From IMG/VR virus record IMGVR_UViG_3300044796_000322, positions 1 to 39,306 of that record: a stretch of 39,306 nucleotides of DNA, one strand, 5' to 3'. The DNA is from a virus. Shown here piece after piece: positions 1,354-39,306 of this stretch; positions within the stretch are counted from its first letter, which is position 1, and the number at the start of each line of letters is the position of its first letter. The position numbers and the translations under genes were made by a program. The notes under the pieces were generated by a model. That model did no database searches. It saw only the letters and a program-made list of their open reading frames with translations, and had not been told where the DNA came from.

Positions 1354-3795
1354 ATGGCAAATATTCAAGGAACCGTTAATCCATTACCTGGTGCGTATAC
1401 CAACGTTACTACGCAATCTAACGCCGTTAATGTTCCTGGCGGCATAAGAACTGCTGTCATTTTGGGAGAAGGGTATCGTACTGAAACTGTAGTTTCATCT
1501 GCTTTGGGCGCTGGTAAGGATGGTTTAGATCCTACCTATAGCACAACAAAAGGTTCAGATGGCCGACATTTTTCACTAACGTATTTCCCGGTAATATCCA
1601 ATAGAACTACCCTATTTAAGAATGGTATTCCGTTAGTTGGTTATGAAAATCCTATAACAACAACTTTTAGCTCATTGTTTGATTATGAATTAGACATCAC
1701 AACTGGACATATACAGCTACAATCTGCGTCTATTGTAGACCAGGGTGGAACGTTTTTTACAGCTGGACAGCTAAATGTTGGCAACGGAACAATAAATGGT
1801 TTAAGCCTTTTAGATCTAAACGCGCCAACAGAAACTTGGACCGTTAAATGTTCAACTGTTCTAAGAGATGGATATGGTAATCCAATTGACGGCTATGCAA
1901 GATTCATCGCACAAGGCTCTGTAAGCGGAATATTGCTTGATGGTTATGGCAATCAAATTATTTGGCAATCAAATGGTACAACTCTAAATAATACAATTTT
2001 AAGCTTCTCTATAACAGAAGGTTCTACCGCTTTTAGAGAAGGTGATAAGTTTACGGTAATGGTGCAAAGCGGAACTCTTGTAAAAGGAGATTCTTTAACT
2101 GCAACTTATATATCTGAAGCTGACATCAACGATCCAGAGTTTTTCACGGATATGGATCTTTTGGTAACAAAACACGGTGTTCCTAGCCTTGTAAATCGAT
2201 TAAGCCTCGGCGCACAATTATCATTTGCTAACGGAACTCCTGGCGTATGGGCTTGCGAAACTGCCCCAAGCATACCGCGAAGGGTCTCTTATGAGCTTGA
2301 AACGTCAGCTTCTGGAGGAGTGACATCTGACGATTTAGAGTTTCCGCTTCCATTAAACATCATTCCAGACGTTGATAGTGATGTGCACTTCTTTATTACT
2401 GATCCTTCAACCGGCGTTGAAACACAAATATTACCAAATAAAGTTGCATTTTACAATGCAGGATATACAACATCACCAAACACATTTATGTTTGGCTCGT
2501 TGAATTATTCATATACCGTTGTGTTAGAAGAGGCTGTAGATAAAAGATCTCAAGATGGTGTTATTACATCTATCGGCCCAACCAGCGCAACAATAAGTAG
2601 CCAGTTGGTAGGATTTACATCAACAGATGTTGGTAAAACATTAAAAGTATTACATCCAGATCTAAATGCTAATACATATACAATCGTATCTGCTACTAAT
2701 GGAGTAGCAACAATTAGTAATGGTATATCATCGTTTACGCATTCTACAATGGCTACATTTGAGGTTCTTGATAGCACGGCAACAAGCGCCACCATTCTTT
2801 TAACAAAAGATTTAGCGCTATCTGCCGGACAATCTTTAAGAGTCACAGTCATAGATGTTAAAGACGCGCCATTCTTCGATGTAGGCTGGGAGGCTGCATT
2901 AGCGGCTATTGAAACAATTGAATGTGATATAGTGGTTCCTCTTCCGTCACAAACAATAAGCGCTATCTTTGCAGCATCAGAAGTTCATTGTATAAATATG
3001 AGCAATACTCAAAATCGTAAAGAAAGAGTTTTGTTTATAGGGGCTATAAATGGACTTACACCTGACAACGTTACAGGAGTAACTCCTGCGGCTGTTGAAT
3101 CATTGGGGCCGCTTGAAGGTATTCACGGTAATACAGTTCAAGAAATACTTAGTGGCGATATAGAAGATTTGACAAATTATAGTGTACCTAATTCATATGG
3201 CAATACTTTTAGAGTTGTTTATTTCTATCCAGATCAAATCGTCGTACAAATAGGCGGAAGCCAAACGATAGTAGACGGATTCTTCCTTGCGCCAGCTGCG
3301 GCAGGGTTCTTATCTGGTACATTAAACGTTGCTATTCCTCTAACAAATAAGATACTTACCGGGTTCTCTATTCTTCGTAATAGACTTTTCCGACCTCTTG
3401 TTCTACAAAATCTTGCTGTCGCAGGTATAACAACATTGCAGCCGGCAATAGGCGGTGGCACTGTAGTTTGGGGATTGACGACATCTCAAAGCGGAGCGCC
3501 AGAAGAACAGGAAATAAGCATTGTCTTTATTAGAGACCGTATCGCGAAAAGCTTCAGAGCTGCATTTGCTAGCTATGCAGGTACAGCAGAATCAAGCACG
3601 CTGCAAGGAAGTTTGATGGCTAGAGCAAACGCTGTTTGTCAAAGCTTTATATCACAAGGACTAATAACGGCGTTCGCTAATTTGAAGGTTGTAAGAGATA
3701 GTATCGATCCGACTCAGTACGACGTGTCAGTAGCTGTACAACCTAACTTTCCTGTTAACTTTATTTCAATCTCAGTTAGTGTTGGCGTTATATAA
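1354..3795 (+). CDS. Contractile tail sheath protein
   Basis: This 813-aa protein forms the contractile outer cylinder of the tail. The N-terminus has the usual sheath opening (Gly-Ala-Tyr-Thr-Asn-Val near residue 14, then Val-Pro-Gly-Gly-Ile-Arg and an Ile-Leu-Gly-Glu-Gly strand). A central domain around residues 500-590 carries the pattern of a helix, a Val-Val-Pro-Leu strand and an Arg-Lys-Glu-Arg segment typical of sheath cores. The C-terminal 60 residues show the conserved helix-rich segment ending in a strand of the form Tyr-Asp-Val-Ser-Val-Ala-Val-Gln-Pro, where subunits interlock. It is longer than T4 gp18 (659 aa). The extra length lies in beta-rich insertions between about residues 110 and 500, probably exposed, with three Asp-Gly-Tyr turns at residues 172-200. 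AGGAAA before ATG 1354 fits as ribosome site. Confidence 0.93.
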   Translation: MANIQGTVNPLPGAYTNVTTQSNAVNVPGGIRTAVILGEGYRTETVVSSALGAGKDGLDPTYSTTKGSDGRHFSLTYFPVISNRTTLFKNGIPLVGYENPITTTFSSLFDYELDITTGHIQLQSASIVDQGGTFFTAGQLNVGNGTINGLSLLDLNAPTETWTVKCSTVLRDGYGNPIDGYARFIAQGSVSGILLDGYGNQIIWQSNGTTLNNTILSFSITEGSTAFREGDKFTVMVQSGTLVKGDSLTATYISEADINDPEFFTDMDLLVTKHGVPSLVNRLSLGAQLSFANGTPGVWACETAPSIPRRVSYELETSASGGVTSDDLEFPLPLNIIPDVDSDVHFFITDPSTGVETQILPNKVAFYNAGYTTSPNTFMFGSLNYSYTVVLEEAVDKRSQDGVITSIGPTSATISSQLVGFTSTDVGKTLKVLHPDLNANTYTIVSATNGVATISNGISSFTHSTMATFEVLDSTATSATILLTKDLALSAGQSLRVTVIDVKDAPFFDVGWEAALAAIETIECDIVVPLPSQTISAIFAASEVHCINMSNTQNRKERVLFIGAINGLTPDNVTGVTPAAVESLGPLEGIHGNTVQEILSGDIEDLTNYSVPNSYGNTFRVVYFYPDQIVVQIGGSQTIVDGFFLAPAAAGFLSGTLNVAIPLTNKILTGFSILRNRLFRPLVLQNLAVAGITTLQPAIGGGTVVWGLTTSQSGAPEEQEISIVFIRDRIAKSFRAAFASYAGTAESSTLQGSLMARANAVCQSFISQGLITAFANLKVVRDSIDPTQYDVSVAVQPNFPVNFISISVSVGVI

Positions 3796-3805
3796 CACAT
3801 TTGTC

Positions 3806-3817
3806 TCTCATATGAGA
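3806..3817. repeat. 12-bp perfect palindrome between sheath and tube genes
   Basis: TCTCATATGAGA is a perfect palindrome 10 bases after the sheath stop codon, inside the 66-base gap before the tube gene. It could be a weak mRNA hairpin, a processing point setting the sheath:tube ratio, or a protein-binding site. It has no T-tract, so it is not an obvious terminator. A site this short can occur by chance. Confidence 0.35.
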
Positions 3818-3861
3818 TGTAAAACAATAAATCTCTCGATAATTTTATTTTAGGATAAAAA

Positions 3862-4494
3862 ATGACTTCTACACGAAATACCACCACGCCGTTAACAGAT
3901 GGTAACGGTAATAACTCAACAAGAACGCATCTTTCGACAAATATTATCATAAAAGTTAGCGGTAATGTTGTTGGTGCTGTTAAATCTTTGGAAGTAACGG
4001 AAGCGCGTACTATAAAGATGGTTGATGAAGTTGGTACAGATGGCCATATTGATGGCGCACCTACCAAATCAACCGATATTACTGGCTCTTGTGTACGTAC
4101 GCGTTTTGATCGTATGAGAATCGCAGAAGCATTTAGCAGATCATTCGTGCACGTAGCTTCACAGCGTATTCCTTTTGATATTGAGATTCAAGATATTTTT
4201 ATGGATTCAGATCCTGGAAACGCAATTATTACAACAATATCAAATGTTTGGATTAAAGATATAAGATATACGTATTCATCAGATGATTATATTATCGTAG
4301 ATACAATGAGCTTTGAAGCTCAGCGCATTTACAGCGTGCTAAATAATCAGAATGTTGCTAAGTCTGTGTCAAATGGTAGAACTAATCCGATTATTTTGGA
4401 TCAATATGAGCAGCAGGCCGATTCAGGCTTATACACAGGTGCCATCGATTCGTCGGGTTTGCTTAACGCATTTATGCAAGATCCTAGAAATTAA
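3862..4494 (+). CDS. Tail tube protein
   Basis: A 210-aa protein that would form the inner tube surrounded by the sheath. Features typical of myovirus tube proteins are visible: a Val-Asp-Glu-Val-Gly-Thr-Asp-Gly motif (residues about 54-61), a Phe-Asp-Arg-Met-Arg helix leading to Ala-Phe-Ser-Arg-Ser-Phe (about 82-95), and Ser-Gln-Arg-Ile-Pro-Phe-Asp-Ile (about 100-107), then the strands of the beta barrel. Length is in the usual range for tube proteins. It lies directly after the sheath gene, as expected, with AGGA ahead of the ATG. A strong hairpin terminator follows at once, so the sheath and tube genes appear to form their own highly expressed unit. Confidence 0.88.
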   Translation: MTSTRNTTTPLTDGNGNNSTRTHLSTNIIIKVSGNVVGAVKSLEVTEARTIKMVDEVGTDGHIDGAPTKSTDITGSCVRTRFDRMRIAEAFSRSFVHVASQRIPFDIEIQDIFMDSDPGNAIITTISNVWIKDIRYTYSSDDYIIVDTMSFEAQRIYSVLNNQNVAKSVSNGRTNPIILDQYEQQADSGLYTGAIDSSGLLNAFMQDPRN

Positions 4495-4510
4495 AACAAA
4501 TTATCTACAT

Positions 4511-4550
4511 GCGAGAAAACCACCGCCATAAATGGCGGTGGTTTTCTTGC
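4511..4550. terminator. Strong rho-independent terminator, symmetric (probably bidirectional)
   Basis: Bases 4511-4529 and 4532-4550 form a 19-bp stem with a single G-T wobble and a two-base centre, so the effective loop is slightly larger. The core is a perfect ACCACCGCCAT/ATGGCGGTGGT stem, flanked by an A-rich arm on the left and a T-rich arm on the right. The A/T arms allow termination on either strand. It lies 16 bases after the tube stop codon and separates the sheath-tube unit from the chaperone and baseplate unit. Confidence 0.85.
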
Positions 4551-4645
4551 AAAGAGCAGATAAAAAAGCTTCGAAAAATAAGTTTGTTCTAAGAAATGTT
4601 CGGCCCTCTCAAATCTTCACCCGTATTCTGCTAAACAAAATATTC

Positions 4646-4674
4646 TTGACGGCTGTCTAAGAATTAGGCATATT
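4646..4674 (+). promoter_or_regulatory. Possible promoter for the chaperone-tape measure-baseplate unit
   Basis: TTGACG (4646-4651; five of six -35 matches) is followed after 17 bases by CATATT (4669-4674; four of six -10 matches). Spacing is ideal, and the site lies between a strong terminator and the next gene, where a promoter is expected. The weak -10 box suggests that an activator or a phage-modified polymerase might be needed. Confidence 0.4.
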
Positions 4675-4696
4675 AAGATATTATATTGCCCGCCAT

Positions 4697-4745
4697 GGAT
4701 CTTTTCGATCCAAAACAATCCGGATCATTTCGATCCAAAAACAAT
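4697..4745. repeat. Tandem pair of GATC-containing repeats, 25-bp period
   Basis: Two copies of a GGATC-NTTTC-GATCC-A(4-5)-CAAT unit begin at 4697 and 4722. Within each unit GGATC and GATCC form a small inverted repeat (4697-4711 and 4722-4736). Four GATC sites therefore fall within 38 bases, just after the predicted transcription start. The 25-bp period is not quite a whole number of helical turns. This could be a paired operator, a methylation-sensitive switch or two short hairpins in the mRNA leader. Confidence 0.55.
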
Positions 4746-4766
4746 AAAAATCAAATCATTCGCGAT

Positions 4767-4789
4767 ATATTATCCTGTACGGATAATAT
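4767..4789. repeat. Perfect 9-bp inverted repeat, 5-base loop
   Basis: ATATTATCC (4767-4775) and GGATAATAT (4781-4789) surround a TGTAC loop. A further direct copy of the half-site ATATTATC occurs at 4797-4804. The arrangement fits either an operator with an extra half-site or a leader hairpin upstream of the chaperone gene. Confidence 0.6.
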
Positions 4790-4804
4790 CTATGGTATAT
4801 TATC

Positions 4805-4828
4805 GCATCAATATGTATATATTGATGC
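4805..4828. repeat. Perfect 10-bp inverted repeat, 4-base loop
   Basis: GCATCAATAT (4805-4814) and ATATTGATGC (4819-4828) surround GTAT. A third partial copy, GCATCAATA, follows at 4830-4838, immediately before the ribosome binding site at 4843-4849. The hairpin ends 14 bases before that site and may influence translation initiation or mRNA stability. Confidence 0.6.
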
Positions 4829-4855
4829 CGCATCAATAATACAAAGGAATAAAAT

Positions 4856-5497
4856 ATGTCAGAAATTAAAAGCCCATTGGGCAATAAATCATTTGCAAGT
4901 CCCGGCCAACGCAGAGTTTTAACGGTATCCGATGATAGCTGGGAAGATATTCCGCAAAAACAAGCGCCGGCTTCGCAAGAACGATTGCCATATGCCCCGC
5001 AAGTTCCAGGGCAGCAGGTTGAATTGACGGTTGATCAGTTTAATGAAATGCAGGCAAAGCGACAAGAAATACGTGCTATGCAGAAAAAACCGTCATCTGA
5101 ATCAAAACTACGAGCCGAAATATTGACGGGCATCGGCAGGCTTACATCTGACATAACAATAGAGGGATATAAGTTTACAATTCGTTCTCTAAAAGCAAAA
5201 GAAATGAGTGATATAATCAAGCACGTTGCGCAAATTGCAATTTCTGCCGAAGCATTATATGAAATGCGCGCGCAAACATTAGCCAGATGCATATCAAAAA
5301 TTGATGACCAACCAATAGGTTTAGTTCTTGGAGGAGACGATCTTTCTACTCTAATAGAGTTCATAAATGATTCAGAAGAGCATATTGTCAACAGATTATA
5401 TACAGCATATACAGAAATGACAAAAGCAAATGAAGATAAGTTTTCAATAGCTGACGCGAAAGACGCGCAGGAGGTAGCTGCGGAAATAAAAAAATAG
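4856..5497 (+). CDS. Tail assembly chaperone (gpG-like), upstream frameshift partner
   Basis: A 213-aa protein in the position of phage lambda gpG, just before the tape measure gene. The lambda-type pair binds the tape measure protein and recruits tube subunits during tail assembly, and is absent from the finished virion. The N-terminal 80 residues look disordered and charged (Pro, Gln, Lys rich). Residues about 80-210 look helical and end in an Ala/Glu/Lys-rich tail. The last sense codons are two AAA lysines of the slippery heptamer, followed by TAG. I chose ATG 4856 because AAAGGAA sits seven bases upstream. No sequence family is recognised directly. The call rests on the frameshift architecture, which is a well-known conserved feature of tail chaperone genes, and on the neighbouring tape measure gene. 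Confidence 0.8.
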   Translation: MSEIKSPLGNKSFASPGQRRVLTVSDDSWEDIPQKQAPASQERLPYAPQVPGQQVELTVDQFNEMQAKRQEIRAMQKKPSSESKLRAEILTGIGRLTSDITIEGYKFTIRSLKAKEMSDIIKHVAQIAISAEALYEMRAQTLARCISKIDDQPIGLVLGGDDLSTLIEFINDSEEHIVNRLYTAYTEMTKANEDKFSIADAKDAQEVAAEIKK

Positions 5498-5531
5498 TTA
5501 AAGAACCAGAGCATAGATTCTTATGGTTCTT
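5469..5531 (+). promoter_or_regulatory. Programmed -1 ribosomal frameshift signal
   Basis: Three elements are visible. (1) The slippery heptamer A-AAA-AAA at 5488-5494 is in the correct phase, directly before the zero-frame TAG (5495-5497). (2) An 8-bp perfect stem, AAGAACCA (5501-5508) with TGGTTCTT (5524-5531), starts six bases after the heptamer. (3) An internal Shine-Dalgarno-like AGGAGGT (5469-5475) lies 12 bases upstream of it. The same trio (upstream SD, A/AAA/AAR slip site, downstream hairpin) stimulates -1 frameshifting in E. coli dnaX. The -1 frame is open from the slip site to the stop at 5836-5838, giving a 327-aa fusion product. Confidence 0.88.
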
Positions 5532-5838
5532 ATCTAAAACATATCAAAAACTACCGGATGATGATTGGTTCGAAAATCTAAATCCTGTCTTGAAGCTATG
5601 GATGTATGAAAGCTGGCTTTCTGATTTTGAGGAACAAAATGAATTTGCAAGAAGCTATGCAATTTTGCAAGGGTCTTTTGCAAATCCTGAGATGGCACAG
5701 AAAATGATTAAGTCCGAAAATCCTGTTTTCGAATCAAGCGAAGAAGATTTCGAAAGGACTACGCAAGAAATGCTCGAAAAGAATAGAAAAAGTATTAAAA
5801 AACGACATAGAAGGGTACTGCTAAATGGCGACAGCTGA
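5494..5838 (+). CDS. Tail assembly chaperone, -1 frameshift extension (gpT-like part of gpGT)
   Basis: This frame encodes 114 residues that would be fused to the 213-aa chaperone by -1 slippage at 5488-5494. By the lambda gpGT model, the G part binds the tape measure protein and the T part contacts tube protein. The segment is Trp- and acid-rich near its start (Leu-Trp-Phe-Leu, then an Asp-Asp-Asp-Trp-Phe segment) and becomes very basic at the C-terminus. It has no good start of its own: the nearest starts are TTG 5590 and ATG 5602, without a clear ribosome site, and codons upstream of them still look protein-like, which supports fusion over independent translation. Its stop overlaps the tape measure start by 14 bases, indicating translational coupling. 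A minority product is expected. Confidence 0.82.
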   Translation: MVKEPEHRFLWFLSKTYQKLPDDDWFENLNPVLKLWMYESWLSDFEEQNEFARSYAILQGSFANPEMAQKMIKSENPVFESSEEDFERTTQEMLEKNRKSIKKRHRRVLLNGDS

Positions 5839-7981
5839 TATTACACTTGACTCATTAAAAGCGTTCTTTGATAAGATGGATCCATCTGCTGCCGTTGCTT
5901 TTTTCCAAAAATTGTCTGGCAGTTCTGATAAACTTCGCGAAGCCTTTACAAGCTTGAATAAAATGGCCGAAAATACGAGCAAAGGAATGTCTGCGCTCGG
6001 GCATGAGATGAAAGATAATTTAGTCGTTGATGTTGAAGCGGCAGAAGGGGCAATGAAATCATTTACCGAATCTATCGGAGTAACAGGCGATAAGCTTGTC
6101 ACTATTGGATTGCAAGCGGCTGTTGTTGGAGTCGTATTAAAATCAGGATTACGCCCTGATGCTTTTGAGAAAATATCTAGCGCTACAAATATGGCATCAG
6201 CAAACTTTGACCATATGAAGACAACCTTAACAGGTGTTGGTAAATTATTATCAACATTGCCTGGCAGTGAATGGGTTGCTAAAAAATTAGCAAATCTTGG
6301 CCCGGCTATGGAACTTGCAAACGATGCAAAAAAGCTTGAATCTGGTATGCTGGCAATAGCAAGTGCTTCCGGCGATCTTGGAAATGTTTTTAATCAAATT
6401 GGCAGTGATATGTCAGGTCTTGATGCAAAAATGCAAGATTTTACAATCATAACAAGCGCTGCTGCTAATGCGACAGGAATGACAACGAAAGAAACCGGCC
6501 AATATGCAAGTGAGCTTATGCATATTCCTGGCGCGTTGGATATGATGGTCAAATCAACATCGGCTGGTGGTCAAGAGATGCGTCTTCTTGAAGCTTCGAT
6601 GAAGGTAGCAACCGGAACCGGCCAGGATTTTCACGCAGTATTCAACGAAATAAATACTGTTTATGAAAGATTTGGAACAACCGGACAAAAAGCGCTTGAA
6701 TACGTTTCACGTTTATCATCTGCTTCTCGTGCAATGCAAATGCCTTTACAAATTGTAAAAGAATATACGGAAAGTGCCGCTGATTCATTTAAGTTTCTTG
6801 GTGATAATTCACAGGGGGCTATTTCAATTTTGGGCAATTTTAATGAAGCGTTAAAGGGCAGCGGAATCGGGCCAAAAACAATTGCCGAATTAGCTCAGGT
6901 TGCTACAAAAAGTATTGCAAATATGGGCACCGCACAGCAAGCGTTTTTATCTTCAACGGCAGGTGGAGCCGGTGGGCTTCAAGGCTCTGCTCAAATCGAT
7001 CTTCTCAAAAAGCAAGGAAAAACCGAAGATATCCAAAAAATGGTAGAGGAAAGTCTCAGAAAACAAATGGGAGGAAGACTTGTTTCAACAGAAGAAGCCG
7101 CGAAAGATACAAGCGGTGCAGCAGCCGCGCAGCGTGAAAAACAACTTCTATTGTTGCAAAGCGGTCCAACAAAAATGGCAGACACAAGAGATCAAGCTAT
7201 TGCAATATCTGATGCTATGGCAAAAGGCAAGATAGCTTCATCAAAAATTGCGTCACCGGAAGCAGCATTAAAAGAATCTGTTGATAAAGGAACTGCTCTT
7301 CAAAAGAGACAAACAGATGGTACTGTTCTTCTTACAAATCTTGCGGAGAAACAAGTAATGTATGCGGCGATTACAGCATATGCGGCACAACGTAATCTAA
7401 CAGGATCAAAAGGGCCTGCCAGCGACTTCATTGATAAAACAATGAGACAAGCTACAAGCACTGGAGCAGCTCAACAAATGTTTGCAACAGATAAGCGTAA
7501 AATGCAACATACTGAAGGAACTCCGGAGCAAGAGATCGAGACACTAAAAGATAGCGTAGCTGACGTTCTTAGCAACATATTTGGTAGTAATGCTAAAAAA
7601 GCCGGAGAACAAAAAAGCGCTTTACATAAAGGGGCTACGCCAGCAGGAACATCTCATATGACGCCACATACAGCTGATGACGGCGTGCCATCACATTTTG
7701 GCGCTGCTGTCACGCCTCGTTCCCGTGTTGCCGGAGATATGAGAGCTGATACAGCCGGCGATGCATCAAGAACACCAAGAGGCGGCGCAGGAGGCATTCC
7801 AGGCGGTCGAGGAGAGTCTTCAACGATTCAAGTTCAAGCCGTATGTGCCGAATGCAATAAAAAAATTGCAAAAGCGGTTGCAATAGATATAGTGAATGGC
7901 AAGATTTCAAGAATGCAAAGAGATCAAATCAACGGTGCTCACGGTGTTCATACGGACGCTGTGAACGATGACAGCTACTAA
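5825..7981 (+). CDS. Tape measure protein
   Basis: A 718-aa protein placed right after the frameshifting chaperones, the conserved tape measure slot. It is largely helical and Ala-, Ser-, Lys- and Gly-rich, with a hydrophobic segment near residues 93-110, as in tape measure proteins that help DNA cross the inner membrane. By the usual rule of about 0.15 nm per residue, the tail would be near 110 nm (inference). A Gly/Arg-rich, probably flexible linker (about 636-668) precedes a C-terminal CX2C-X28-HX2H arrangement (Cys674, Cys677, His706, His709), which may bind metal. ATG 5825 overlaps the chaperone frame, and AAGGG nine bases upstream supports the start. The next gene begins 11 bases after its stop. 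Confidence 0.82.
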   Translation: MATADITLDSLKAFFDKMDPSAAVAFFQKLSGSSDKLREAFTSLNKMAENTSKGMSALGHEMKDNLVVDVEAAEGAMKSFTESIGVTGDKLVTIGLQAAVVGVVLKSGLRPDAFEKISSATNMASANFDHMKTTLTGVGKLLSTLPGSEWVAKKLANLGPAMELANDAKKLESGMLAIASASGDLGNVFNQIGSDMSGLDAKMQDFTIITSAAANATGMTTKETGQYASELMHIPGALDMMVKSTSAGGQEMRLLEASMKVATGTGQDFHAVFNEINTVYERFGTTGQKALEYVSRLSSASRAMQMPLQIVKEYTESAADSFKFLGDNSQGAISILGNFNEALKGSGIGPKTIAELAQVATKSIANMGTAQQAFLSSTAGGAGGLQGSAQIDLLKKQGKTEDIQKMVEESLRKQMGGRLVSTEEAAKDTSGAAAAQREKQLLLLQSGPTKMADTRDQAIAISDAMAKGKIASSKIASPEAALKESVDKGTALQKRQTDGTVLLTNLAEKQVMYAAITAYAAQRNLTGSKGPASDFIDKTMRQATSTGAAQQMFATDKRKMQHTEGTPEQEIETLKDSVADVLSNIFGSNAKKAGEQKSALHKGATPAGTSHMTPHTADDGVPSHFGAAVTPRSRVAGDMRADTAGDASRTPRGGAGGIPGGRGESSTIQVQAVCAECNKKIAKAVAIDIVNGKISRMQRDQINGAHGVHTDAVNDDSY

Positions 7982-30121: not shown

Positions 30122-33049
30122 ATGACACAACGTATTCCAGTTTCTTCCGTTCAAAATATATGGTCTAATGCTCAAAGAGTGGACTCTAGTGATATGCTTC
30201 TTGAGCAAGAACATAATAATGAGGCTATATCAGGAATAATTCAAGATCATTTCGGATCTGGCGTTCTTTTATCAAATATACAACAAGCTGTTTTATTTGA
30301 TTCTAACGTATTAAATGCTGCTCAAGCTGCTCTTGTTGCCGTGAATAGTTTTGACGGTACAGGAATATCACCAACACTGCAACCAAGCGATATAAATAGC
30401 GGAAATCAATTAGAAATTGAATTAGTTGATTCAACTGTTTTTGGACGATTAAGCGTTAAGGTGGCTATCATTGGTGAAGCTTTTGATGGTACACTCCAAA
30501 TGGACAGATTATATTTTCATAGAAACGGAAAGCAAGTAACATCAAAGCATTATAAAACTATACTTGCATTATTTTTTAATGATTTTTTTGGCAACTTAAA
30601 CTGTTCAAGAGCGCAAGGCGGCAGAATTATTGTAAGAGAAACTGCGTCATTTGAACTATCACGTGATCCTATTATGGCGTCACAAGATGTTCAGCCGGAT
30701 ATTTTTTGGAGAGACTGGAAACTTCCCGGCATAAATGCCGATTTATCAAGTACAATACAGGCAGGCATTGGGCCGGAGTTTACAGTTGATACGTTACAAA
30801 TCAATACTACAGGTATTAGTAATAATGTTATTTTGGCGGGTGATGTCACGTCACAAGTTGGACAAAAGTTCTTGGCCACAACAAATAATATACAAAAAAT
30901 TACTCTTTTATTAGGAGTAAATCTAGAAACGTCTCACGCAATAACAGACATATATGATTGGAGCGGTGACCTTTTAATAAGTATTTATCCTTTGCAGTCA
31001 ACCGTATCTTGCCCGTCTGATATCGTTCCAACATTAGCTATAGATTTTGATCCATCAAGCCAACCATTAGCGCAATTAAGTTATAACCAAGCGTCACTAC
31101 AAGACATTGGATATGTTCTTAATGATGTTTTACAGCCTGTAGATTTTGTATTTAGCGCCGCGAAAATTAGCTCACCAACAGGCGGAATTGTACCTGGTAA
31201 CTATTATGCTATAACCGTGAAAAGAGTTGGTGTAACTACAGTTGGCGATATTTTAATAGGAACAGGTACAAATACATCTACAACCTCACGGGCAACACTA
31301 TTCAGTGGCGTTTGGGTAGATATTCCAGATCAAAGCTTATGGTTTCAGGTTTGGACGGATGCTGCCAAATTAGCTGACGGTCAAGGGTATGATGTTGGTA
31401 ATGGTATTTTAATTCCAAAAACTATAACGGATTCTTTAACAGGCGCTACTATTGATAATCAGGTTAGATATTTTTCATTAGCTGATACTGGCTCAAACGT
31501 TCTTAATACCGGCCTTATTCAAGCAGTAGCGACACAATCAGTTAGCGTACAAGATGAAAGAACTGGAAATAATATATTTTCTCAGCAACAATTTACTCCA
31601 TTATTTAGTTTTGTAACCACAACCAATCTTAATAACTTAAAAAATATTTCTGAACCGCTAACAATAGGAGCATTGCAAGATGGAAATCCAAAACAAAATC
31701 CTGTTTTAACAAAAACGCAACTATTACCAGGACTCGCGTCTAATGATATTTTTTGCGTAGTAAATCCTGACGCCGACTTACTATCATTAAATCTATTAGG
31801 AAGTAAATTATATCCAAATGTATTATCAAGCGATTCATTTAGAATATTTAGAACTACATTTTGTATTGACGGGTACGGAGATGTAAACGCTGATGGATAC
31901 ATTGATGCAAATGACGTTACATTAGCGTCTAGTCTTATCGGTGAGAGCCTTTATTTTGCTTCTACGCAAACTAAAATTATTGACGGATATTTTACTACAC
32001 TTGAGCTATTACGTGCTGACGTAAATGGTGATGGTTATGTTACCGTAGAAGATGCTGATTTAATTGCACAATATGCAGGAAAAGTAATTAGCTCATTTCC
32101 TGCTGGCTCATCATTTACACATATGAATCTTGAAGTTCAGCAAAGCACCGGACGTTATGATGGATATTTTGATTGTGACGGATATGTTAGACTTGACGGA
32201 TATTTAGGTCAAAACCTAATCAATTCAAACATATTATCGCCGTCATCTCTTATATATGACGGTTATCAGCTGATGCCAATGATACAAAAAGATCCTGTAT
32301 TTACAACTGTGCCGTTCCCAGGCGTAACATATCAGATTGTAGCACAACCATTTTGGCAACCCTATTGTTTATATGAAAGCAGCGCAATTAGACTAGTACC
32401 AACTACGTTCAGCGCTCCTAATGCTATCGTGCCGCATAAAACAGTAATGCCTTCGGCGTCATCTTGCGTAAATCACGATCGTATTATTCCAGCAAACGAT
32501 CCTGGTAGAAATGATTTTTTTGTTCCTGATAATTTGTTTATAGGGACTGGAGAGATATTACGGTCAGACGGCTCGAATTATAAAGTTGATATTGAAATAG
32601 GAACAATTATTCTTGAACTTCCGGCTGTACCTTTAGTTGAATCATCGATAAATATATTTCAGCAACTTGTATCTGACAGAGGTGACGGGTGGTCAGGATC
32701 TGGTGTAGGAACTCCTGCAATGAGGTATTCTGATAACAGCACTGTGCAACCTGCGGATTTGTTCTTGAATAAAGTTAGATTTAGTGTGTCTGTAATGAGC
32801 TACTATCCATCGTTGGACGGCTATAGCCCAATTGATGGTTACGGAATTATAGTCGATCCTATTATTGGTGTTCATATAGACGCTTTGACCGGCATACTTA
32901 CATTATCAATTAAAGATTTAGAAGTTGATAATGTGCTTTTAACATTAGTCACGAAATTGGAAATTATAGTTTATCTTAAAAAAGGCGGCTGGAATAACTC
33001 AATAATGATAATTCCTCCGAATCAAGTACAAGGTTTAATTAGCCACTAA
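30122..33049 (+). CDS. Outer baseplate protein with dockerin-like calcium-binding domain
   Basis: A 975-aa protein whose gene lies nine bases after the 2221-aa protein gene (AGGGAAA ribosome site). The N-terminal 150 residues look like a structural attachment domain. Two dockerin-type F-hand loops are readable: Asp587-Asn589-Asp591-Tyr593-Asp595-Asp598 and Asp633-Asn635-Asp637-Tyr639-Thr641-Asp644, each followed by a helix (Leu-Ala-Ser-Ser-Leu-Ile-Gly and Leu-Ile-Ala-Gln-Tyr-Ala-Gly). Their start-to-start spacing, 46 residues, is longer than in typical cellulosomal dockerins. Ten Asp-Gly-Tyr tripeptides occur, most between 580 and 720. No cohesin partner is recognised in the window. Probable role: a peripheral baseplate or fibre-attachment protein whose domain is stabilised by calcium. 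It is the last structural gene before the glycosyltransferase cassette. Confidence 0.72.
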   Translation: MTQRIPVSSVQNIWSNAQRVDSSDMLLEQEHNNEAISGIIQDHFGSGVLLSNIQQAVLFDSNVLNAAQAALVAVNSFDGTGISPTLQPSDINSGNQLEIELVDSTVFGRLSVKVAIIGEAFDGTLQMDRLYFHRNGKQVTSKHYKTILALFFNDFFGNLNCSRAQGGRIIVRETASFELSRDPIMASQDVQPDIFWRDWKLPGINADLSSTIQAGIGPEFTVDTLQINTTGISNNVILAGDVTSQVGQKFLATTNNIQKITLLLGVNLETSHAITDIYDWSGDLLISIYPLQSTVSCPSDIVPTLAIDFDPSSQPLAQLSYNQASLQDIGYVLNDVLQPVDFVFSAAKISSPTGGIVPGNYYAITVKRVGVTTVGDILIGTGTNTSTTSRATLFSGVWVDIPDQSLWFQVWTDAAKLADGQGYDVGNGILIPKTITDSLTGATIDNQVRYFSLADTGSNVLNTGLIQAVATQSVSVQDERTGNNIFSQQQFTPLFSFVTTTNLNNLKNISEPLTIGALQDGNPKQNPVLTKTQLLPGLASNDIFCVVNPDADLLSLNLLGSKLYPNVLSSDSFRIFRTTFCIDGYGDVNADGYIDANDVTLASSLIGESLYFASTQTKIIDGYFTTLELLRADVNGDGYVTVEDADLIAQYAGKVISSFPAGSSFTHMNLEVQQSTGRYDGYFDCDGYVRLDGYLGQNLINSNILSPSSLIYDGYQLMPMIQKDPVFTTVPFPGVTYQIVAQPFWQPYCLYESSAIRLVPTTFSAPNAIVPHKTVMPSASSCVNHDRIIPANDPGRNDFFVPDNLFIGTGEILRSDGSNYKVDIEIGTIILELPAVPLVESSINIFQQLVSDRGDGWSGSGVGTPAMRYSDNSTVQPADLFLNKVRFSVSVMSYYPSLDGYSPIDGYGIIVDPIIGVHIDALTGILTLSIKDLEVDNVLLTLVTKLEIIVYLKKGGWNNSIMIIPPNQVQGLISH

Positions 33050-33087: not shown

Positions 33088-34179
33088 ATGAAAGTTTGTT
33101 TTCAACAATTTTTGGATGGCAAGCATAGTTGGAGCATAGTAGGTCTAAATACTGCCCGAGCATTAAAAGCGCTTGGGCACGAGATACATTTATCATCAAC
33201 CAATGGTTATGATAATTTTCCAAATGATTTACGACCAAATATCATAAAAACATTTGATCAGTCTTATGACCTACAATTTAGCTATACGGCTATGCTTAAT
33301 TTTCCAAGATTTTTATCGCACGGAAAAACAAATAGGTTTGGAATGTGGTGTTACGAGCTTCCTCTCATACCAGCGAATATGGTCAAATACCACGCTGCCT
33401 GCGATAAACTATTGACACCAAGTAGTTTTGCGCGAGATATATTTGTTGCAAATAAGGTTCCGGCAGATAAGGTTATCGTTGTTCCGCACGGAATAAATGT
33501 TGAAGATTATCAAACGGATAAAAAATATATATTAAAAACCAAAAAACGCTATAAGATTCTTGTAAACATAGGACAACAACATTTAAGAAAAAATATAGCA
33601 GGAATGTTCGAGGCTTTCGGTCTTGCGTTTGATAAAAATGATGATGTTTGTCTTGTCGCAAAAATATATACAAAAAAACTTGAAAGTCATTTTGATGTTG
33701 ATACGCGCAAATTATATAACAACTTCGCTGCAAAATATAAAAATCACGCAGAGGTAGAGCTAATAACAGAGTTCATTCCAAATATGGCAGAGCTATATAA
33801 CGCGTGCGATATGGTATACACATTAAGTTTTTCTGAGTGTTATTACCTTCCTGGCATCGAAGGGTTTGCTTGTAATAAAATAAATATTGCTCCTAGGTAC
33901 GGCGGGCAGCTTGATTTTATGAACGATGAAAACAGTCTTCTTGTTGATGGAAGTATGATTCGAGCAGATCCAAAAATGCAATATTGGACGCCAAATATTC
34001 ATAATACGGTTTTTAATTCTGACGTTATTGACGCCGCAAATAAGCTACGATATGCTGTTTCTAATTATGATGAATTGCTTAATAGATTTTTGCCAAATAT
34101 GAAGCAGGCCGTAAAAAAATATACCTGGGAAAATAGCGCAAAAAAGATTTTGGAGCTTGTCAATGAAAATAATAAATAA
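33088..34179 (+). CDS. Glycosyltransferase, GT4-type (GT-B fold)
   Basis: A 363-aa protein transferring a sugar from a nucleotide-sugar donor, by family. It shows the GT-B layout: an N-terminal acceptor half (a Gly-Leu-Asn-Thr-Ala-Arg-Ala-Leu helix after the first strand, residues about 17-30), a mid-linker with Val-Pro-His-Gly-Ile-Asn, a second-domain strand Ile-Leu-Val-Asn-Ile-Gly followed by Arg-Lys-Asn, and the donor-binding EX7E motif (Glu250 and Glu258, with Glu258-Gly-Phe-Ala). No membrane segment is present, so it is cytoplasmic. It is the first gene of the cassette. No ribosome site is visible upstream of ATG 33088. It overlaps the next gene by 17 bases. The sugar and acceptor cannot be told from sequence. 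Confidence 0.85.
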   Translation: MKVCFQQFLDGKHSWSIVGLNTARALKALGHEIHLSSTNGYDNFPNDLRPNIIKTFDQSYDLQFSYTAMLNFPRFLSHGKTNRFGMWCYELPLIPANMVKYHAACDKLLTPSSFARDIFVANKVPADKVIVVPHGINVEDYQTDKKYILKTKKRYKILVNIGQQHLRKNIAGMFEAFGLAFDKNDDVCLVAKIYTKKLESHFDVDTRKLYNNFAAKYKNHAEVELITEFIPNMAELYNACDMVYTLSFSECYYLPGIEGFACNKINIAPRYGGQLDFMNDENSLLVDGSMIRADPKMQYWTPNIHNTVFNSDVIDAANKLRYAVSNYDELLNRFLPNMKQAVKKYTWENSAKKILELVNENNK

Positions 34180-34966
34180 TAAATGCGTGGAAGAAGAACA
34201 GAATAATGATATTATTCTTTCAATAATAATTCCTGTATACAATAATGTAAATTATACAAAAAGCATTCTTAATGATTTATTAAAATTACCATCAAATCAC
34301 GAAATTATTGTTGTTGACGGAGCGTCAGAAGATAACACTTGTGAAGTTGTAAATGAGCTAATAAGCACAAAATTAAAAGATTCGCCGTCTCTTGTTTATA
34401 TAGGATGTCCGTCAAATGGCGGATTTGCATCCAATTGCAATAAAGGAAATAAACACGCAAAAGGCAAAAATATTATGTTTCTAAACAATGATGTTCGTGT
34501 CCAATCGAATTGGAACGATTGGACGCAGCCTATTATCGATTATTGTAAAAATGGATTTTTATTTTGCCCAACAGGCGGATTGCTTGATGACGATTTCAAT
34601 TTTGTTAAAAATATTGATCATTTATTAGACACCCCATTTTTTTATTTAAGCGGCTGGTGCCTTACTGCAAGCAAAGAAACATTTAATAAATTGATTCCAA
34701 ATCATTATTGCAATGATAAAACAAATAAAATCGAGGAAGGAAAAGCATACGGCCCGTTTTCAGAACAATTTGGGAAGGCTTACTTTGAGGACGTAGATTT
34801 AAGTTGGAGAGCGCGGGAGCTTCAAATTGATTTTATGGTTAAACCGATTCCGCTTTATCATTTTGGACATATGACTGCTAAAAAAATGAATATGAATAAA
34901 TTATATCTATCGGCAAAAGAAATATTCACTAAACAATGGAAAAAAATAAATGAAAAAAACATTTGA
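34163..34966 (+). CDS. Glycosyltransferase, GT2-type (GT-A fold)
   Basis: A GT2-family enzyme of about 267 aa. It opens with Leu-Ser-Ile-Ile-Ile-Pro-Val-Tyr-Asn, then Val-Asp-Gly-Ala-Ser-Glu-Asp-Asn-Thr (nucleotide-binding), the metal-site equivalent Asn108-Asn109-Asp110 in a Phe-Leu-Asn-Asn-Asp-Val strand, and the acceptor-side motif Phe208-Glu-Asp-Val-Asp212 followed by Leu-Ser-Trp-Arg-Ala-Arg, as in rhamnosyl- and galactofuranosyltransferase-like members. I prefer ATG 34163 over the in-frame TTG six bases upstream. The start lies inside the preceding gene, so translation is probably coupled. The donor sugar cannot be assigned. Confidence 0.85.
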   Translation: MKIINNKCVEEEQNNDIILSIIIPVYNNVNYTKSILNDLLKLPSNHEIIVVDGASEDNTCEVVNELISTKLKDSPSLVYIGCPSNGGFASNCNKGNKHAKGKNIMFLNNDVRVQSNWNDWTQPIIDYCKNGFLFCPTGGLLDDDFNFVKNIDHLLDTPFFYLSGWCLTASKETFNKLIPNHYCNDKTNKIEEGKAYGPFSEQFGKAYFEDVDLSWRARELQIDFMVKPIPLYHFGHMTAKKMNMNKLYLSAKEIFTKQWKKINEKNI

Positions 34967-35144
34967 GGAAGTAAAGTCACTTATTGCAATTGGCGGACTT
35001 ACTGCTGTTGGGTATGTTGCTGGTGCCATTACGGCAAAATGTTATGGCGATACAAGTCTTATAATGGAATGGGCCGGAATGTTGATTGGCGCATCTATTG
35101 GCATCCTTTTAATTGCTCGTAGGCTATTTAAGGCTTTCAGTTGA
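34950..35144 (+). CDS. Small two-helix membrane protein
   Basis: A 64-aa protein with a basic/acidic N-terminus, two hydrophobic segments (about residues 10-29 and 39-57) joined by a short polar loop, and a basic C-terminal tail. It overlaps the preceding GT2 gene by 17 bases and the following one by 4, so it is a real member of the operon. Size and topology fit a class II holin, but an anchor for the neighbouring glycosyltransferases or a small superinfection-exclusion protein fit equally well. No endolysin gene is recognised nearby, which weakens the holin idea. Confidence 0.7.
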   Translation: MKKTFEEVKSLIAIGGLTAVGYVAGAITAKCYGDTSLIMEWAGMLIGASIGILLIARRLFKAFS

Positions 35145-35980
35145 TACACGTATTAACGCTTTCCTGGAACGGTTTTGATAAGCTTGAGACTCTTCATCCC
35201 GGTCTAATAAAAAATCTTAAAATAACAGGTCAAGATTATATATGGCACATTCGTTCTAACGGATGTAAGGACGGAACGATTGAAAAAATATCTAATTGGG
35301 ATAATAAAAACATTGTTTCGTATGCCATTGAACATAATCGTGATAATTTTGCACAAGGAATGAATTATTTAACAGAACAAGCAAAGTCAAACAAAGAAGA
35401 TATTCTTCTTTTTATGAATAATGATGTAAAGTTTATTGATGATAATTCATTATTTAATATGTTAGATCTGTTGAATAAAAATGCACAAATATCAATGGTT
35501 GGCGCTAGGTTATTATATAATAACACAAATAAATTACAACACGCTGGAGTTATTTTTGGCGCTAAATATAATCATATGCCGTATCACTTTAGACATACGG
35601 AAGAGTCTGACGTAAACGCAGAAAAAAATAGATACTTTCAGGCCGTAACAGCAGCCGTATGTATGGTCAAATCGAAAGATTTTCAAGAAGTTGGAGGATT
35701 TAATCCTGCTTATTTTTGGTCATTTGAGGATATTGACCTGTGTTTGCGTATAGGACGTTTAGATAAAAAAATAGCTTATTGCGGAAAAACATTTATCTGT
35801 CACGAAGAAAGCGCTAGTCTTAAAAAAAATCCAATCAATAAAATGTTTTTAACTCACAATGTATTGGAGTTTCAGCGTAACTTTTGGGAAAACGGACATA
35901 ATAAAAAACAAAAAGATGGCGGATATGAAGATGATCATTCGTCGTATCTAAACGTTCCGGATCATAATGTCATCATTTAG
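35141..35980 (+). CDS. Glycosyltransferase, GT2-type, TTG start
   Basis: A 279-aa GT2-family enzyme. It shows the first strand Val-Leu-Thr-Leu-Ser-Trp-Asn, an Asn-Asn-Asp (93-95) metal-site equivalent in a Phe-Met-Asn-Asn-Asp-Val strand, Gly-Gly-Phe-Asn-Pro-Ala-Tyr-Phe, and Phe195-Glu-Asp-Ile-Asp199 followed by Leu-Cys-Leu-Arg, the layout of the rhamnosyltransferase-like subgroup. The best start is TTG at 35141, forming a TTGA overlap with the stop of the membrane protein gene; no ATG closer than residue 86 would keep the first strand. Translation is thus probably re-initiation dependent. The C-terminus is Lys/Asp/His-rich. It overlaps the next gene by 14 bases. Confidence 0.83.
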   Translation: MIHVLTLSWNGFDKLETLHPGLIKNLKITGQDYIWHIRSNGCKDGTIEKISNWDNKNIVSYAIEHNRDNFAQGMNYLTEQAKSNKEDILLFMNNDVKFIDDNSLFNMLDLLNKNAQISMVGARLLYNNTNKLQHAGVIFGAKYNHMPYHFRHTEESDVNAEKNRYFQAVTAAVCMVKSKDFQEVGGFNPAYFWSFEDIDLCLRIGRLDKKIAYCGKTFICHEESASLKKNPINKMFLTHNVLEFQRNFWENGHNKKQKDGGYEDDHSSYLNVPDHNVII

Positions 35981-36938
35981 TATTAAATATTTCCCATTTA
36001 CTCCGGGTATACCTTGGAAATTATTCGATGGCAAATATATTAAGCCAGAGCTATCGTCTATATCGTGGCAAAATATTTCCAAGAATGCAACTGCAACGGC
36101 AATATGTTTTGGCGGACTAATTGAATCCTATTTATCACTAAGCGCCCTTGAGAGTATAAATTATATTTCGCCAAATATTAAACTAATATGGGCTGGAGAT
36201 GATAAATATAAAATATTATGTGATATAAACGGACTATCCAAATATACAGACGATTTACCAAAAGATATATCTTCGCGTTTTCCCACGCCAATTTTTTTTG
36301 ATAAAACCGGCAATATATATTTTAATTGTCTTCTAAATTATTTATATATTAAAACATATTACGGGGCAAAAGGATATAAAAATAGCCGCCCAATAGCAAA
36401 ACAAATAATAGATAATAATTTAATTCGTTGGGAGCAACAGTTTGTTCCAAAATTAAGGAAACAAACCGTATCAAAAGAGCTTGATCAACTAATTAAAATA
36501 AACAAATTAAATCAAAATATTCCGATCGTTATTATTTTGCCAGACAAAACGCAATTTACAATGCATAAAATAAAATGTTTAAGCTGGACTCCTATGCAAG
36601 TCAAATCTGTCGCAACGTTATTAAAGCATAAAAATACAAATGTTATTGTTTTTTCGGACCAACCAGAAAAATATAATAGCATCGATTTAATTGTATTGCC
36701 GATTAAGCTTGAATACATTTTACATTTTATACCAAAAGCTTTATCAATATTATCAACAGATATTGATTTTTTATTTTTAGCTAATATATTATCTTCTGCA
36801 AAAATATTTACAGAATATAATAAAAATCAATTTAATCTAAATAATAACAATAAGTTTTTTAACAAAACAAATAAAATATATAAAAAAAGAACACTAACGC
36901 CGCGTTATGTATTCGAAAATATAATAGGACCCGTATGA
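35967..36938 (+). CDS. Possible GT9-like (heptosyltransferase-type) glycosyltransferase, divergent
   Basis: A 323-aa protein, strongly Lys/Asn/Ile-rich and A/T-rich in DNA, lying inside the glycosyltransferase cassette (14-base overlap upstream, ATGA overlap downstream). The layout hints at the GT9 family: an early Ala-Ile-Cys-Phe-Gly-Gly strand with a helix and Pro-Asn-Ile-Lys-Leu-Ile-Trp (about 45-75), and a second half with an Ile-Val-Ile-Ile-Leu-Pro strand, a Trp-Thr-Pro helix start, a Val-Ile-Val-Phe-Ser-Asp strand and a Leu-Ser-Thr-Asp-Ile-Asp...Leu-Ala segment in place of the usual Asp-Ser-Gly. No catalytic residue is certain. It may be a degenerate or non-catalytic GT-B protein. If wrong, it is a hypothetical protein whose only clue is its operon. 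Confidence 0.5.
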   Translation: MSSFSIKYFPFTPGIPWKLFDGKYIKPELSSISWQNISKNATATAICFGGLIESYLSLSALESINYISPNIKLIWAGDDKYKILCDINGLSKYTDDLPKDISSRFPTPIFFDKTGNIYFNCLLNYLYIKTYYGAKGYKNSRPIAKQIIDNNLIRWEQQFVPKLRKQTVSKELDQLIKINKLNQNIPIVIILPDKTQFTMHKIKCLSWTPMQVKSVATLLKHKNTNVIVFSDQPEKYNSIDLIVLPIKLEYILHFIPKALSILSTDIDFLFLANILSSAKIFTEYNKNQFNLNNNNKFFNKTNKIYKKRTLTPRYVFENIIGPV

Positions 36939-37684
36939 GCAATATAGCATCCATTATGGTAGCGACATTTAATCGCCTATCGCTTACAAAACAAACGATA
37001 AATAATCTTATTGAAATGACAGATTATCCATTTGAGCTTATTGTTATTGATAATGCTTCTGTTGACGGAACTGTTGAATATCTTAAAAATGAACTAGAAA
37101 GCCTATTATCTAAAAATAGTTATTTTTGCAGTTTGATAATAAAAGAAAATGATATAAATAAAGGAATTGCATATGCTAGGAATCAAAGTTTGCTATTAGC
37201 GTCTGGAGAATGGCTGTGTACGCTTGATAATGACGTTCTTCTTCCAAAAGGCTGGTTGACAAAATGCATTTCTGTTCTTTCAAGGAATAAAAATTATGGG
37301 GCTATTGGGGTAAATATGGAGGCTGTTACTTATCCGTTGGTTTTAATAAACGGAGAAGAGTTTCAGAAAAAACAACAAGGAAATCTTGGAACGGCGTGTA
37401 TGGTATTCCCAAAAAGCTTTCATAAAATGCTTGGATTTTTTAATACTGAAATGGGTTTATACGGTCAAGACGATTCAGATATGGGCATGAGAGCCAGAGT
37501 AGCCGGATATGAGCTTGGATATATAAAAGAAAACGGCAAACACCTTGGAGAAGGAGAGAATGATACTGGCGAATATAGAACATTTAAGACAAATAGTCAC
37601 GCGAATAATATGACAAAGTTTAATGAAAATTGTAGATTATATGCTACAAGAAAAAAGCCGATATATATACCTTTTAAGCCTTAA
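36935..37684 (+). CDS. Glycosyltransferase, GT2-type
   Basis: A 249-aa GT2 enzyme with a full set of GT-A landmarks: Ile-Met-Val-Ala-Thr-Phe-Asn-Arg at the start, Val-Ile-Asp-Asn-Ala-Ser-Val-Asp-Gly-Thr (nucleotide site), a canonical DxD metal motif (Asp98-Asn99-Asp100) in Thr-Leu-Asp-Asn-Asp-Val, and Gly-Gln-Asp-Asp-Ser-Asp (177-182) followed by Met-Arg-Ala-Arg, the catalytic-base region. Its ATG overlaps the upstream TGA (ATGA), so it is translationally coupled. No transmembrane helix is seen. The next gene starts four bases after its stop. Donor and acceptor are unknown. Confidence 0.86.
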   Translation: MSNIASIMVATFNRLSLTKQTINNLIEMTDYPFELIVIDNASVDGTVEYLKNELESLLSKNSYFCSLIIKENDINKGIAYARNQSLLLASGEWLCTLDNDVLLPKGWLTKCISVLSRNKNYGAIGVNMEAVTYPLVLINGEEFQKKQQGNLGTACMVFPKSFHKMLGFFNTEMGLYGQDDSDMGMRARVAGYELGYIKENGKHLGEGENDTGEYRTFKTNSHANNMTKFNENCRLYATRKKPIYIPFKP

Positions 37685-37688
37685 AAAT

Positions 37689-39306
37689 ATGATCACAAAA
37701 GAAATATATCAAGAAGACCTTAAACGCGTTATATCTTTACACAAAGCTGCAAGGTATGACGGCGGATGGATATTAGAGCCAAGGTTCGGCAAAATTGTTT
37801 TTGATTTATCAGATTTTAACGATATAGATTCGTTAAAAATATTTGCAAAACGTTTATCAGGAAATGGTAAAATTACAATAAATATTGATGGAAATGATGT
37901 CAATATAACAGTATTATCTAAGATATCACAATCGTTTGACTTAAAAAAATGTTCAGGTCTAGAAATATCACGCTCAGCAGATAGTTTAGGCGAAGTTTGT
38001 ATATTTGGTGTTTCTATTAGTTGCAATAAAGAGGATACTGTTTTGAGTAATAATTGGAAAGTTTTGATAGCTAAATGCGGCAAATATGAACATTTGAGAA
38101 TGGCAGGTGATAGGCTGTTTGCAAGCGAAGGAGCATATATAGAAAATAGCTCTATTGTTAAAAACATCGAAACTATACCAGCCGATATGTCAATAAAAGA
38201 AGGAGATAAGCTCAAGTTCCTTGCAGCTTGTGAAATTATTAGCCTAACAATTGATGAACAAAATTATACACATACTGATAAGCAGCTTGTAATACGTCGT
38301 GATTTACCTGGTCCGGCGCTTGAATCGCAGGTTACTAGCTTAAAACCACAGTTATCAAATAATAAATTAAATGCACAACAAATCATTTATACACAACAAA
38401 ATATAATAACTACATACCAGTCAAAAATAGTTTACAACTCAAATAATTTTAACGGATTTCGTTCATATACGAATGCATCAAAAACAGGTAAGCTAATAAA
38501 CAGTAATAATAAAAATTATCTATTATTAAAAACTGGTGGTGTATTTTCGCTCCCAATATCAGATTTAGTTCCAAATAAAAAATATATTATCACATTAAGC
38601 TTAAAAAAACTAAACGGAAACGGTAAAATACATATAGGTATTGGCTGCGAAAACAAACAAATAAATTATTATCCGGCAATAGCGACAGGAATAACATCTA
38701 ATATAAACACGGAAATAACTACCGAAAATCAAGACCCTGGCAGCTTTATATTAAATATTGCAATGCTTGCAGACGGCTCCGGTGAAGTGCTAATTGATAA
38801 AATCATTATTATAGAGAATATAGTTACAAATAGTATTAAATCGAATATTGATTATTCATCGTCATATCTTGTTTCTGATAAAAGAAAGTTTGTAATTATC
38901 ATACCGAGCTATAATAATAGTAAATGGTGTGAAAAAAATATTACTTCTTGTCTTGAACAAGATTATGAAAATTATCGTATTATATTTACCGATGATTGCT
39001 CAAAAGATGATACCTTTGAAAGGGCGTCTAAAACAGCTTTAGATTCCAAAAAAGCTGATATATGCACATTAATAAAAAACTCCGAAAGAATTGGAGCCTT
39101 AGCTAATTTGTATAATATGATTCACAGCTGTAATGATGATGAAATCATTCTTACGCTAGACGGTGATGATTGGTTATATGACAATAACGTTCTAAAAAAA
39201 TTAGAAAATGTTTATTCTGATGAAAACACATGGATGACATACGGTCAATATAGAAACCATCCTAATGGTGGTACAGGTGTACCACAACAAATACCAGATC
39301 GTATCA
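37689..39306 (+). CDS. Beta-sandwich/GT2 fusion protein, 3'-partial (runs off the window)
   Basis: The frame opened by ATG 37689 has no stop to the right edge (539 complete codons), so the C-terminus is missing. Residues about 25-115 and 280-395 each look like beta-sandwich (jelly-roll) modules, with Gly-Asn-Gly-Lys-Ile strands and, in the second, the ending Gly-Glu-Val-Leu-Ile-Asp-Lys-Ile typical of carbohydrate-binding modules. From about 400 a GT2 domain begins (Phe-Val-Ile-Ile-Ile-Pro-Ser-Tyr-Asn; Thr-Asp-Asp-Cys-Ser-Lys-Asp-Asp-Thr; DxD motif Asp491-Gly-Asp493 followed by Asp494-Trp). A minus-strand open frame at 37709-38215 is a shadow of it. The layout suggests a glycosyltransferase that docks on its glycan or protein acceptor. 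More domains may follow beyond the window. Confidence 0.82.
   Translation, partial: MITKEIYQEDLKRVISLHKAARYDGGWILEPRFGKIVFDLSDFNDIDSLKIFAKRLSGNGKITINIDGNDVNITVLSKISQSFDLKKCSGLEISRSADSLGEVCIFGVSISCNKEDTVLSNNWKVLIAKCGKYEHLRMAGDRLFASEGAYIENSSIVKNIETIPADMSIKEGDKLKFLAACEIISLTIDEQNYTHTDKQLVIRRDLPGPALESQVTSLKPQLSNNKLNAQQIIYTQQNIITTYQSKIVYNSNNFNGFRSYTNASKTGKLINSNNKNYLLLKTGGVFSLPISDLVPNKKYIITLSLKKLNGNGKIHIGIGCENKQINYYPAIATGITSNINTEITTENQDPGSFILNIAMLADGSGEVLIDKIIIIENIVTNSIKSNIDYSSSYLVSDKRKFVIIIPSYNNSKWCEKNITSCLEQDYENYRIIFTDDCSKDDTFERASKTALDSKKADICTLIKNSERIGALANLYNMIHSCNDDEIILTLDGDDWLYDNNVLKKLENVYSDENTWMTYGQYRNHPNGGTGVPQQIPDRI

Follow-up and report, generated by a model that had tools for sequence, protein, structure and literature searches.

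A probable programmed −1 ribosomal frameshift with a selected upstream Shine-Dalgarno element in the tail assembly chaperone gene of an uncultured phage and its relatives

Frameshifting of the dnaX type is efficient, reaching about 50% in Escherichia coli, and the Shine-Dalgarno (SD) spacing in dnaX is about 10 nt. The E. coli dnaX cassette has three parts, an upstream SD-like element, an all-A heptamer encoding Lys and a downstream stem-loop (PMC3711429), and A_AAA_AAG is much more shift-prone in E. coli than the other A-rich heptamers tested (PMC5009743). SD elements are also thought to favor +1 shifts at short spacing, which is where the SD of prfB lies (both from Devaraj and Fredrick 2010, as cited in PMC3711429). 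Programmed frameshifting of the lambda gpG/gpGT type occurs in tail assembly chaperones (Xu, Hendrix and Duda 2004, as cited in PMC5009743), where −1, −2 and +1 shifts are all known from different phages (PMC5009743), and two members of another phage tail chaperone cluster were measured at 6–7% (PMC3711429). Both tail-chaperone frameshifting, in these three directions, and the three-part dnaX cassette are already known. The literature that we searched, which covered few subscription papers, describes no SD stimulator conserved in a tail chaperone lineage.

Here, we analyze a virus record of 39,306 nt (IMG/VR IMGVR_UViG_3300044796_000322, positions 1 to 39,306), referred to in its entirety as the window. 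Sequence comparisons indicate that it very probably encodes a tail assembly chaperone pair via programmed −1 ribosomal frameshifting. The relevant features are as follows.

1354–3795, plus strand: tail sheath (sheath PHROG and Pfam matches)
3862–4494, plus strand: tail-tube-like protein (phrog_9206, named major head protein; "tube" taken from gene order)
4856–5497, plus strand: zero-frame tail assembly chaperone ORF, 213 aa, G-like product (phrog_344, Foldseek)
5469–5475, plus strand: internal SD element AGGAGGT, 12 nt 5′ of the heptamer (read from the sequence)
5488–5494, plus strand: slippery heptamer A_AAA_AAA, in phase with the codons ATA AAA AAA TAG
5495–5497, plus strand: zero-frame stop TAG abutting the heptamer (read from the sequence)
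5501–5531, plus strand: downstream stem-loop, 8 bp and perfect, with a 15-nt loop, 6 nt after the heptamer; TTA separates TAG from the stem
5494–5838, plus strand: −1 frame extension, T-like domain, 114 aa, in a 327-aa fusion; some relatives match PHROG tail assembly chaperone families
5825–7981, plus strand: tape measure protein (match to Pfam TMP_3 with E 9e-7, short of the curated cut-off); its start lies within the last bases of the −1 frame

An earlier note, made from the letters of the window, had described AGGAGGT 12 bases upstream of A-AAA-AAA, the TAG and an 8-bp stem six bases downstream, and all of them are found where it had placed them; the stem arms are AAGAACCA (5501–5508) and TGGTTCTT (5524–5531). 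The heptamer does run straight into TAG, as the note had it, but the zero-frame product ends directly after the slip site and not within it. Translation confirms the predicted fused product of 327 aa, formed by the 213 aa of the zero frame (4856–5497) and the −1 continuation (5494–5838), with a junction that reads EIKK/IVKEPEH. Upstream of the stop, the −1 frame is open for just 40 nt, and it is free of ATG, GTG and TTG up to 5590. On the plus strand of the window, AGGAGG occurs 6 times and a run of A7 or longer 17 times, so that about 0.02 pairs at about the right spacing are estimated to occur by chance, an estimate that does not yet require the pair to sit where one ORF ends and a second is open in −1. 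The pairing energy of the internal SD is −11.2 kcal/mol, compared with −9.5 for the best of 20 gene-start SDs examined. Many more A7 tracts lie in 33088–39306 than in the rest of the window; this region, after the tail genes, holds a run of ORFs that by eye resemble glycosyltransferases. Rfam and tRNA scans of the window found nothing.

The zero-frame protein matches phrog_344, tail assembly chaperone, with E 6e-7. Its AlphaFold model has a mean pLDDT of 84, and Foldseek matches this model to gp182 (E 1.5e-6) and gp181 (E 2e-6) of phage G and to chaperones of Rhodococcus and Bacillus phages; profile and fold searches of the PDB with the chaperone gave no good match to solved structures. Other chaperone PHROGs are matched by some relatives of both halves, the zero frame and the second domain. 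By this structure match, gp181/gp182 of Bacillus phage G are a homologous chaperone pair, annotated as a joined tail assembly chaperone with the site A_AAA_AAC TAG, but, unlike the window, they have no strong SD at the site. The product of the ORF at 3862 matches the gp180 region of phage G (E 4e-12). As expected for a gene pair of the G/GT kind, the chaperone ORF lies between the major tail genes, sheath and tube, upstream and the tape measure gene downstream. The window thus resembles lambda gpG/gpGT in that two frames overlap immediately upstream of the tape measure gene, with a shift near the end of the first frame that would give short and extended products. It differs in that the slip site in its lineage is flanked by a conserved SD upstream and by structure downstream, in that the stop usually abuts that site, and in that the homologous lineage has both −1 and +1 forms.

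Two further observations concern the proteins of the window. The tripeptide DGY occurs 22 times, with varied codons, compared with 1.8 expected from composition, in ORFs starting at 449, 1354, 13747, 23447 and 30122; across the related loci described below it occurs 576 times, a count inflated by homologous sheath copies, compared with 76 expected, with permutations of the tripeptide near expectation and DGF also raised. The 975-aa structural protein encoded at 30122–33049 contains two stretches, GDVNADGYIDANDV and ADVNGDGYVTVEDAD, that by eye are dockerin-like.

A sequence search of an annotated phage collection matched neither half of the chaperone and gave only distant matches to the sheath, and a single-protein search of IMG/VR with the chaperone gave no match; relatives were therefore sought through the sheath and tube. 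A sheath search, followed by sheath and tube alignments, enlarged the set to 168 loci. Most are IMG/VR contigs, the longest of 473 kb; the set also includes phage G (L007) and one contig from the bin of a Chitinophagales genome (L168). With a profile built on the second domain, 96 distinct junctions were identified, among them that of the window (L001); a spurious second match in L007 was left out. The second domain is carried by 147 loci with a tube gene. Only two loci with a tube gene and room downstream, L121 and L058, are without it, and neither is informative: in L121 the tube gene is followed by coding on the opposite strand, and the sequence of L058 breaks off too early. Both also contain ORFs that by eye resemble a LAGLIDADG-type homing endonuclease or intein, with a repeated IRGYxDGDGCIS motif: 3798–5930 on the minus strand of L121, after the tube gene, and 5513–6319 of L058, where one such ORF sits between two tube-like ORFs.

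The second frame overlaps the first, has no start of its own and is conserved as a domain, as in other G/GT pairs. It lies in the −1 frame at 84 of the 96 junctions, and a +1 shift is needed at the other 12. The heptamer, its phase and a stop within one codon are kept even where identity between zero-frame proteins is as low as 22–39%. Among the 84 −1 junctions, the conserved slippery sequence is A_AAA_AAA in 75, ends in AAC in 6, in AAT in 1 and in AAG in 1, and is AAAAGCA in 1; the stop follows directly in 63 and one codon later in 21. This last form, A_AAA_GCA at about 9517–9523 of L086, is the only such replacement of the heptamer, and leaves both frames intact. The codon before the Lys pair, which encodes Ile, Leu, Val or Ala, ends in A in all 84 (35.9 expected from codon use), and 159 of 160 Lys codons at the slip site are AAA (107 expected), in tests that, like all our codon tests except that on 50%-identity clusters, treat related sequences as independent. 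Judged from these codon counts, the bias at the slip site is selection on nucleotides and not on the protein.

The upstream SD has a similar signature. Lys, Glu and Gln codons end in G in 52 of 63 cases at codon −8, where 18.4 are expected (z 9.6), and in 39 of 57 at codon −9, where 17.9 are expected (z 6.3). Most codons nearby are close to expectation, with weak departures such as that at codon −15 (z 2.6), and the anti-SD pairing energy peaks only at the SD position. After relatives were collapsed at 50% identity, GAG was still preferred in 17 of 22 clusters (background 0.33, p 2e-5). By this synonymous over-use of GAG and AAG, which is strong, the upstream SD is selected as RNA. A strong SD, defined as at most −8 kcal/mol, is found at 48 of the 73 junctions of the window's clade and at none of the 23 basal junctions outside it, so that about half of the relatives are without one. 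The idea that its presence follows the use of SDs at the gene starts of the same phage is not supported (Spearman −0.17, p 0.10). Across loci, a weaker SD goes with stronger folding downstream (Spearman −0.30, p 0.006, uncorrected for kinship).

Folding of the 47–51 nt after the heptamer is better than in null sequences, with a mean z of −1.43 against dinucleotide shuffles and −1.68 against synonymous variants, compared with −0.42 to 0, weak or none, in control stretches elsewhere. In the stem register of the window, 72% of cells pair, compared with 34–49% when the register is slid by 1–4 columns, but covariation there is barely above that of letter shuffles. This exact register is common among relatives without being universal, and several clades fold differently (AGCTCCC/GGGAGCT in L075 and L074; GGAGCC/GGCTCC in L059). 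Because folding exceeds the nulls while covariation is weak and the folds vary among clades, local structure after the heptamer is supported by the sequences, and the precise 8-bp stem is plausible. The three elements of the earlier note therefore hold up across relatives as a heptamer in fixed phase, an SD with synonymous-codon evidence and a local structure, although all three together are not universal.

The description of the cassette as dnaX-style stands for its architecture: an X_XXY_YYZ heptamer of A/Lys codons (A_AAA_AAA), an SD roughly 10–14 nt upstream that is selected as RNA and is a putative stimulator, and a stem-loop 5–8 nt downstream, whose exact register is without covariation support. 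It does not extend to the heptamer itself, which in the window is A_AAA_AAA and not A_AAA_AAG, the form present at 1 of 84 junctions, and is less shift-prone in E. coli (PMC5009743). Avoidance of A_AAA_AAG would fit a need for a low ratio. The window also differs from dnaX in its SD spacing of 12 nt, in the gene concerned and in that the shifted product is the longer one.

The 12 junctions that require +1 (L004, L027, L030–L034, L036, L038, L040, L066 and L103) form a side clade in which AAA_AGY replaces the heptamer (AGT in 11, AGC in 1; the Lys codon is AAA in all 12). The shift falls at exactly the same residue as in the −1 junctions, with colinear sequences (IRK/VVRTP in the +1 clade, IKK/IVKEP in the −1 group), and on AAAA a Lys-tRNA that moved one base forward, from AAA to AAA, would re-pair perfectly and leave the protein exactly colinear. 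A −2 shift in this clade was considered and rejected: the bases before AAA vary among A, C, G and T, which allows no general re-pairing, and it is +1 that keeps the residue count exactly. The SD is kept, and its codons are those used in the −1 group, with G as the last base in 11 of 11 and 11 of 12; its mean energy is −11.8, and it lies about 16 nt away from the codon that slips. The +1 clade shows no signal of structure downstream (z −0.3 to −0.4). In the tube tree, the +1 junctions are nested within the −1 group, with two changes by parsimony and one possible, so that the +1 form is probably derived from the −1 form. Scanning for the +1 pattern, we obtained 13 stretches, and every one belongs to the same chaperone gene. 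The clade resembles prfB in combining a +1 shift with an upstream SD, but differs from it in slipping at AAA_AGY and in its SD distance; since SDs are thought to favor +1 at short spacing, retention of the SD at about 16 nt is unexplained. Our confidence is evenly divided on the full reading, namely that within one lineage the sign of the shift changed from −1 (A_AAA_AAA, SD, stem) to +1 (AAA_AGY) at the same residue, with the SD kept and the stem lost, and that the SD at about 16 nt may stimulate or position the +1 shift.

Other explanations of the two frames have to be weighed against −1 frameshifting. That the SD-like sequence merely reflects a protein motif, A-K-E-V, with no stimulator, is very unlikely: K/E-E-V is indeed common at these codons, but their third bases are far from background. 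Slippage of RNA polymerase on A7 would produce mRNAs with a changed number of A, from which standard translation gives the fusion, and homopolymeric slip sites are present in the window and at 74 other junctions. The tract is, however, never longer than seven, whereas polymerase slippage has been described in bacteria on runs of nine (PMC5009743); its phase relative to codons is fixed, it ends in C or T in seven relatives, and the +1 clade has just four or five A. Conservation of the SD and stem also points to the ribosome, and we consider polymerase slippage highly unlikely. The strong SD just upstream of the second frame could instead start an independent gene by re-initiation, but not one of the 84 junctions has an ATG, GTG or TTG in the second frame 4–16 nt after the SD, and in 47 of the 84 a stop between SD and heptamer closes that frame, which makes re-initiation extremely unlikely. 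Like transcriptional slippage, it is poorly supported. A sequencing error or a decayed gene split in two has nothing in its favor beyond the two frames themselves, and is practically excluded by the fact that 84 distinct junctions all show the −1 split at one and the same residue.

Programmed −1 frameshifting is also consistent with the specificity of the pattern. When 2.9 million viral contigs were scanned for the exact AGGAGGT-N12-AAAAAAATAG (A7-TAG), 53 stretches were obtained, 34 of which encode the same chaperone gene family at the same site; in none of the other 19 is a long zero frame accompanied by a −1 frame of 40 codons or more. The reading of the earlier note, a −1 frameshift cassette, is supported by the conserved heptamer and phase, the codon evidence for the SD and the local structure. 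The heptamer is lost with both frames intact in the side clade, but as a +1 site replaces it there, frameshifting in the window is not refuted. What these comparisons show directly is the architecture, the homology and selection at the RNA level, which acts on the slip site, on the SD and on local structure downstream.

We propose that most ribosomes would read through to the TAG at 5495 and make the 213-aa protein. A minority would pause with the Lys codons AAA AAA in the decoding sites, held back by the stem-loop in front and, upstream, by base pairing between AGGAGGT and the 16S rRNA 3′ end, and one or both Lys-tRNAs would re-pair one base back, resulting in the 327-aa fusion. The slippage, its rate and the roles of the two products are here modeled on lambda and other tail chaperones (PMC5009743); by analogy with gpG/gpGT, the short form may coat the tape measure protein and the fusion may recruit tail tube subunits. 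This uncultured phage thus probably makes two versions of its tail chaperone from one gene through some ribosomes slipping back one base.

Two features appear to be new: a three-part cassette of dnaX-like form that is lineage-wide, with its SD under selection at the RNA level, and a switch from −1 to +1 with the SD retained. The lineage offers about 95 natural variants in which an internal SD and downstream structure are selected around the slip site of a phage tail chaperone, and a natural series that passes from −1 to +1 while the SD stays the same, in which the direction of SD-assisted frameshifting is directly testable. If true, an SD that aids a +1 shift at about 16 nt is not predicted by current spacing models. 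For uncultured large phages, the junction provides an annotation rule for a gene pair that would otherwise be called as two ORFs.
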